Positions 43,965 to 47,584 of a stretch of 64,000 nucleotides of DNA are shown piece after piece. The notes under the pieces were generated by a model. That model searched no databases. It had not been told where the DNA came from and was given only the letters and a program-made list of their open reading frames with translations. Origin of the DNA: Thermodesulfobacterium sp. TA1. Its GTDB lineage: Bacteria > Desulfobacterota > Thermodesulfobacteria > Thermodesulfobacteriales > Thermodesulfobacteriaceae. Made by a program: the position numbers and the translations under genes. Location of the stretch: positions 1,116,001-1,180,000 of the forward strand of contig NZ_CP043908.1 of the NCBI RefSeq assembly GCF_008630935.1, in the 5' to 3' direction. Each line of letters starts with the position of its first letter. The first letter of the stretch is position 1.

Positions 43965-44040
43965 AAGAATGCCTCCTTTATATATGATTTTTTAAGGAGG
44001 GAGGAGAAAAAAGATATATAATAACAAGACTTATGATAAA

Positions 44041-44210
44041 CCCCAGGGTGTCGTGGGAGCTCCCTGCTCCAAGCTCTTAGCTTAAAACCTTAGGGGTGGG
44101 GTCTGGATAATCTTAGAAGCTCTTAACGAGCAAAAGACCCCAGATCCACCTAACCCCAACAAACTTTTGATGTTAGCTTGGCAGGGCGTTACTCTTTCCA
44201 CGAGCACCCC
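44041..44210 (-). ncRNA. ssrS: 6S RNA candidate
   Basis: Structured, GC-richer segment directly after zapA, the usual site of ssrS. On the minus strand the ends form a long closing stem: GGGTG/CACCC plus UCGUGG/CCACGA, then CCCUGC-CAAGCU pairing with AGCUUG-GA-GCAGGG. It encloses an open central bubble and an apical arm closed by GGGGUC/GACCCC with a GCUC/GAGC hairpin. That is the 6S layout that mimics an open promoter and binds RNA polymerase. The outer stem's 5' strand (44198-44209) lies within the last codons of zapA. SRP RNA is unlikely because no GNRA-type SRP tip is seen. Ends are approximate. Confidence 0.72.
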
Positions 44211-44497
44211 AGGTATGGCTTTTCCTTTTCTAAAAACTCTCCCAGTTTTAAAACTTGTATCTTAAGATACTCTTCTAACTGTTCTTTTTCTTTTTTAAGC
44301 TTAACGTAATCATGGGCTACCTGCAAAAGTAGCCAAACAGCCAGCTTAAAAGTAGACACCTTCTTAATATTTTCTACTTCTTTCTTTTTTTCCTCTAAAT
44401 AAGCCATAACCTCTGTTATTTCTTCTTCCGAGATGTAAGCTCGAAAGGTAAAACTTTGACCTAAAAAATTAAAACTAACTTCTTTTGAGTTTAACAT
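44189..44497 (-). CDS. zapA: Cell division protein ZapA
   Basis: FtsZ-binding protein that bundles FtsZ filaments at midcell. Short 102-residue protein with the ZapA N-terminal pattern (FNFLGQSFTFRAYISEEEI, then a helix starting EVMAYLEEKKKEVE) and a C-terminal coiled coil (KLKKEKEQLEEYLK). The start is ATG at 44497. Together with the zapB-like gene just upstream it makes a division pair. The last codons (around 44198-44209) also form the outer stem of the 6S RNA candidate. Confidence 0.9.
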   Translation of the reverse strand: MLNSKEVSFNFLGQSFTFRAYISEEEITEVMAYLEEKKKEVENIKKVSTFKLAVWLLLQVAHDYVKLKKEKEQLEEYLKIQVLKLGEFLEKEKPYLGCSWKE

Positions 44498-46384: not shown

Positions 46385-47584
46385 TTAAACATGAGAGACC
46401 TCCAGAACAGGGAACTTAGAAAAAGCAGGATTAAAGAAAGTTTTTTTTCTACAAATTGCATAGATAACTCTTATAAGTTTGTTTACAACTGCTATCATAG
46501 CTTTCTTATAACTGCCAAAGTTTTTCTTCTTACGTATAAAATAGGATCTGAAGTAAAAATTCCATTTTACTACACCTACCGCCATCTGGAAAAGAACATT
46601 TCTGAGAAAGCTCGACCCTTGCTTAGATATGCTCATCTTAGCTTTATACTTACCAGATTGTTTTGTTACTGGGTCTGTGCCCGCAAACTTTATGAGCTTT
46701 TTGGCATTAGAAAATCTTTTTACGTCTCTGATTTCAGCCAAAAAGAGACTTGCAAGTTTAGAGGAAATACCTTTTATAGAGGAAATGAGCTTAATTTGTT
46801 CTTGCTGGTCTTCATCCATTTTCTCTACAAGCATCTCTTCAAGCTTTTTTATTCTTGGCTCAAGGAAAAAGAGTTTTTCGATGTAGATGATAAGAGTTTG
46901 AGAGAGATAAGGATTGTCAACCCCGATAGAGTTTTTAGCAAGGTTTATGACTTCATCGGGAGAAAAGGAAGGGGTTTTACCTTTAGGAACAGAGGATTTA
47001 ATAATTTCGGAAATTTCATTTGGTTTAGCTTTTTTAAGGGTTTTAGCAGAGGGGAATTTAAGGAGTATGTTAAGGAAGGAGTGGGAGTAAATATTAAAGT
47101 GCTTTTCAGCTTCTGGGAAAAGAACAGTGAGGGCGTATTTGATTTGAGTTTTAGCTTCAGCAAGTTCATGTTTAAGTTTTTGGATAAGACGAGAAGCACT
47201 ACGGAGTTCAGAGTTTTCAGGATAGGATTTAAGGAATTCAGGGTTATTAAGAGCGAAGAGTGCAAGGATTTTGGCATCTTTTGTGTCGTATTTAGAGGGG
47301 TTGTTAGCGGAGATAAATTCAAAGAATCTGTGGACGATTTTAGGGTTAAGGATGAAGGTTTGGATATCTTTTTCAACGAGGAAGCAGTAAAGGGGGATGT
47401 GGAACCTACCAGAGGATTCCATAACAACGATAGGGTCAGAGAGGGTTTTGAGAAGGTTAAAGAAATCAGAGAAGCCTTGAAGAGACATAGAGAGTTTGCC
47501 GGAGGAGAGGGTTTTAGCTTCATGGTTAAGGATGCAGAAGTGGAAGTTATCTTTAGAAATGTCAACACCGATGTAATGGGTCAT
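46385..47584 (-). CDS. IS110-family transposase (DEDD recombinase)
   Basis: 399-residue recombinase. The N-terminal RuvC-like DEDD domain has Asp in YIGVDISKD (D8), Glu in VVMESSGRF (E56) and Asp-x2-Asp in SKYDTKDAKI (D100, D103). A central coiled coil (about 125-255) and a Tnp20 domain follow. The Tnp20 domain has SIKGISSKLASLFLAEI, KLIKFAGTDP and a Ser-Gly (310-311) that fits the catalytic serine of this family. Length is normal for the group and the frame is intact, so the element may be active. It starts at ATG 47584 with a GGAGG upstream. Confidence 0.95.
   Translation of the reverse strand: MTHYIGVDISKDNFHFCILNHEAKTLSSGKLSMSLQGFSDFFNLLKTLSDPIVVMESSGRFHIPLYCFLVEKDIQTFILNPKIVHRFFEFISANNPSKYDTKDAKILALFALNNPEFLKSYPENSELRSASRLIQKLKHELAEAKTQIKYALTVLFPEAEKHFNIYSHSFLNILLKFPSAKTLKKAKPNEISEIIKSSVPKGKTPSFSPDEVINLAKNSIGVDNPYLSQTLIIYIEKLFFLEPRIKKLEEMLVEKMDEDQQEQIKLISSIKGISSKLASLFLAEIRDVKRFSNAKKLIKFAGTDPVTKQSGKYKAKMSISKQGSSFLRNVLFQMAVGVVKWNFYFRSYFIRKKKNFGSYKKAMIAVVNKLIRVIYAICRKKTFFNPAFSKFPVLEVSHV

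Follow-up and report, generated by a model that had tools for sequence, protein, structure and literature searches.

The analysed window is a 64,000-nt stretch of the genome of Thermodesulfobacterium sp. TA1 (NZ_CP043908.1, positions 1,116,001 to 1,180,000). On its minus strand, zapB, zapA, a structured RNA, rny and ymdB follow one another in that order, and all four proteins are supported by Pfam (Table 1). The RNA is a long imperfect hairpin between zapA and rny, and the rny start lies 74 nt past its 3ʹ end. A DNA search recovered the same RNA in 18 genomes of the same family, always in the order zapB-zapA-RNA-rny. Placement after zapA is usual in the phylum, if not strictly defining, for 6S RNA, a widespread RNA of bacteria that restrains RNA polymerase. 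A putative IS110-type transposase-like ORF (46385-47584, minus strand) was seen near the zapA-6S-rny cluster.

Table 1. Genes and RNA parts at the locus, in window coordinates
Feature	Position	Strand	Basis or remark
zapB	44736-44518	minus	PF06005, 37.3 bits; upstream neighbour of zapA
zapA	44497-44189 (stop codon 44191-44189)	minus	PF05164, 49.9 bits
Predicted 6S RNA (ssrS), 177 nt	44215-44039	minus	ends from model R1, 175.5 bits; fold z -5.05
Closing stem, 5ʹ strand	44199-44214	minus	consensus helix 1, covariation over 59 loci; all zapA coding
Inner stems, 5ʹ strands (CCUGC, AAGCU)	44175-44185	minus	helices 2 and 3, 100% of cells paired
Central bubble, 5ʹ side	44158-44174	minus	unpaired in consensus; first bases complete the invariant GCUAACA
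Apical arm	44093-44157	minus	double changes at ten pairs (helices 4 and 5)
Central bubble, 3ʹ side	44076-44092	minus	unpaired in consensus
Inner stems, 3ʹ strands	44063-44075	minus	consensus structure
Closing stem, 3ʹ strand	44041-44055	minus	fold, consensus structure, covariation
rny (RNase Y)	43964-42360	minus	PF12072, 118.2 bits
ymdB	42343-41558	minus	YmdB confirmed by Pfam

Fold and covariation of the RNA

The RNA strand folds far more stably than expected by chance. The minimum free energy of positions 44031-44214 is -79.2 kcal/mol, compared with -57.8 +/- 4.2 kcal/mol for shuffled sequences (z -5.05), and none of 200 shuffles folded equally well. An earlier note on this DNA had named four helices (GGGUG/CACCC, UCGUGG/CCACGA, CCCUGC/GCAGGG and CAAGCU/AGCUUG), and all four are present in the minimum free energy structure. 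Its boundaries, 44041-44210, were nearly right, the model-derived ends being 44215 and 44039. It had also held that the pairing needs the last codons of zapA. This is true of the first two helices (RNA positions 2-17, equivalent to 44214-44199) and not of CCCUGC and CAAGCU, which fall just past the stop codon at 44191-44189. The overall architecture is that of a 6S RNA, with a long closing stem, a central bubble and an apical arm in 177 nt, where about 180 nt is expected.

The structure is also maintained in relatives. In the alignment of the organism's own family, 98.3% of the 44 consensus pairs are formed, and 15 pairs are doubly changed; shuffling gives 5.2 such pairs, and sliding the pairing partners no more than 4. 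These double changes point to continuing selection on the fold. The outer stem, which the earlier note had wanted checked in related genomes, is conserved, and its covariation across 59 loci includes an exchange of G-C for C-G in 19 of them. These counts lean towards the model, because the 59-locus alignment was fitted to its structure. The columns of the GCUAACA motif are invariant in the alignment.

Identity of the RNA

The Rfam 6S model (RF00013), the search by which the earlier note proposed to judge its identification, has no match in the window, even at E = 10 (E <= 10), an outcome that the note had itself listed as grounds for refutation. Across the organism's own genome, the best RF00013 score is 10.9 bits and lies elsewhere; it was rejected as noise, leaving no other 6S candidate. 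Rfam matches in the region to HIV_GSL3, SOX2OT and SMAD5-AS1 are far under their gathering scores and were set aside as meaningless. The absence of an RF00013 match in the window is explained by divergence of the RNA and is a property of the detection model, not of the RNA.

This divergence can be followed through relatives in graded steps. RF00013 scores 81-94 bits in sister families of the order, in one genome of which (G032) the RNA is shown between zapA and rny; of 297 phylum members scanned with this model, 103 gave no hit. At nine loci of the organism's own family, it scores 77.6, 73.4, 49.6, 42.2, 37.4, 33.2, 32.1, 28.1 and 19.1 bits, always over the full length and at homologous coordinates, and the 28.1-bit locus belongs to a member of the same genus. 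The relationship also holds in the reverse direction. R1, a covariance model whose only input was the family's own RNAs, recovers 24 of 35 RF00013-positive loci of other families, and in each case its coordinates and strand agree with those of RF00013. R1 matches 39 of the 41 genomes of the order, one of them (G003) partially, and finds a single place in the organism's own genome. Thus, despite the absent RF00013 match, the covarying RNA shared by the family, the graded RF00013 scores of relatives and the R1 matches together establish by homology that the RNA of the locus is a highly diverged 6S RNA; the earlier identification stands on these grounds, while the Rfam search that it had named came back empty.

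Two genomes of the same genus depart from the pattern: in G003 the partial 6S match sits close to the end of a contig, and G006 gives no match. A search for zapA in these two genomes found nothing in either, and the missing full-length 6S match may reflect an assembly gap or real loss.

The 6S RNAs of the sister families (L062-L065, matched by RF00013) share the closing stem CCCUGNGGUGNNCGUGA / CACGGCAC..CNGGGG, GAGCCAACA at the bubble, the position after zapA and a zapA stop codon inside the RNA. However, they carry the classic RF00013 apical arm (GGGAG...CACCCAC), whereas the apical arm of the Thermodesulfobacterium RNA differs from that consensus, and another intervening element lies downstream of theirs. 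In the sister families, this element, conserved 3ʹ of the 6S RNA, reads CCCCGTAAGGGT...GGCCGCCAAGGCGGTCGGTGAAGGG (L089-L094, L096-L098, L062), and a scan of four loci gave no Rfam match to it. In the stretch that separates the 6S RNA from rny (43965-44038, minus strand), loci of the organism's own family have a CTCCTCCCTCCTT-like pyrimidine tract followed by a strong Shine-Dalgarno sequence (AAGGAGG). In the window, these two elements could possibly pair and mask the rny ribosome site, a possible form of translational control of RNase Y.

The overlap with zapA

The end of zapA reads ...CTG GGG TGC TCG TGG AAA GAG TAA, so that RNA positions 1-27 are zapA codons and stop. The shared stretch, 44215-44189, therefore comprises the last 27 nt of zapA (eight codons and the stop) and the first 27 of the RNA. 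The RNA's 5ʹ strand is embedded in the 3ʹ end of zapA, as the earlier note had reported, and the closing stem draws its whole 5ʹ strand from coding sequence.

The overlap extends across the order. Each of its 39 loci that R1 or RF00013 matches over the full length has the zapA stop codon within the RNA, at position +18 (21 loci), +22 (8), +43 (6), +27 (3) or +12 (1), and hence at five positions in two reading frames. Because of these different stops and frames, the ZapA tail varies between clades (LGCS*, LGCSWKE*, SWGVREDD..LPS* and SGARE*) over nearly constant nucleotides. Averaged over pairs of sequences within the family, identity rises from 0.445 in the 15 nt preceding the conserved block to 0.90 in the block's first 15 nt; across the order, the corresponding values are 0.40 and 0.91. 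In the window, these 15 high-identity nucleotides at the start of the overlap are zapA coding throughout. Since identity jumps where the RNA begins, the RNA appears to dictate the tail of zapA. On the simplest reading of these sequences, it appears to be the RNA, and not the ZapA protein, that is selected in the overlap, with zapA ending wherever a stop codon falls.

Elsewhere in the sampled phylum, zapA lies just upstream of 47 of 60 RF00013-positive loci, overlapping the RNA in 8, abutting it in 4 and ending at most 30 nt before it in 29. The overlap thus appears to be fixed in the order and occasional in the rest of the phylum. In E. coli (zapA-ssrS-fau), ssrS likewise follows zapA directly on the same strand and yields an RNA of 183 nt; however, a 41-nt gap without overlap separates the two, and fau/ygfA, not rny, comes next. 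The placement of 6S RNA after zapA is, as the earlier note stated, already established in the literature. The available text of a study of beta- and gamma-proteobacteria describes zapB-zapA-ssrS-(fau)-EVE arrays in which the 6S RNA is often unannotated, conceivably through divergence (PMC7641849). These arrays share the zapB-zapA-6S order but have fau/EVE genes next instead of rny, and that text describes no overlap with zapA. Among publications naming both zapA and 6S RNA, the parts available report adjacency at most; the wide-ranging surveys of 6S RNA (Wehner 2014, Barrick 2005) lie outside this search, and an earlier report of the overlap may exist.

Because the RNA overlaps zapA, its mature 5ʹ end would be made inside the zapA message. 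Judged from the sequence, the transcript must begin or be processed there, and sequence alone does not choose between the two. A consensus scan of the 39 loci found no consistent sigma-70-like promoter ending at the RNA start, so the 5ʹ end could arise at a promoter located in zapA or through processing of a zapB-zapA-6S(-rny) transcript.

Translation itself might regulate the RNA. Ribosomes finishing zapA would occupy the 5ʹ strand of the closing stem, and 6S RNA would fold only from transcripts on which zapA is untranslated. We consider this improbable, though it is the alternative to be taken most seriously. In its favour, every one of the order's 39 loci has the stop codon 12-43 nt into the RNA, and no consistent separate promoter was found. 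Against it, a promoter inside zapA, which is possible, would remove the coupling. Moreover, the position and frame of the stop wander between clades, as expected if the end of zapA is incidental, and most of the remaining phylum is without overlap. If such regulation were real, the supply of 6S RNA would rise when zapA translation falls, so that the translation of a division gene would be tied to the control of RNA polymerase.

Proposed function and significance

The observations are very probably explained together by a 6S RNA (ssrS) that takes part of its closing stem from the end of zapA, appears to be selected as RNA in the overlap and, by homology, would control the RNA polymerase holoenzyme. 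By analogy with known 6S RNAs, the bubble (44174-44158 / 44092-44076), flanked on either side by a helical arm, would mimic an open promoter, and the RNA would sequester the housekeeping holoenzyme. Release would follow from synthesis of a short product RNA on the 5ʹ side of the bubble, and the invariant GCUAACA is likely the putative template site for this product. Going by an alignment to the E. coli start site, the predicted product RNA would start with GUUAGCUUGGCAGG or nearby.

There is a slim chance that the RNA descends from a 6S RNA and no longer works as one, acting instead within a zapB-zapA-rny operon as a structured element of the 3ʹ UTR or intergenic region, perhaps to stabilise the mRNA or, beside the RNase Y gene, to serve as an RNase substrate. 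The fading of the RF00013 match below detection in the window, the changed apical arm and the position in a cluster of genes on one strand, 74 nt ahead of rny, would all suit such a role. However, the RNA retains its central bubble, its closing stem and the invariant GCUAACA, the double changes indicate ongoing selection on the fold, and the genome has no other RF00013 candidate, R1 finding one place only. That the structure works from the plus strand, or that it is an inverted repeat arisen by chance and lacking any function, is scarcely credible, and the plus-strand reading was rejected: that strand folds more weakly, beating its shuffles (z -4.05) as any long inverted repeat would, but R1 gives it 27.5 bits against 175.5 for the minus strand, the RF00013 matches of relatives lie on the zapA strand, and the compensatory changes exclude chance.

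Pipelines that annotate gene boundaries and RNAs are likely to mishandle the locus. A same-strand overlap between a protein gene and a structured RNA has been kept across an order, and the RNA appears to set the tail of the protein in two reading frames. The locus also provides the 6S RNA, invisible to Rfam's model, that was so far missing from Thermodesulfobacterium.
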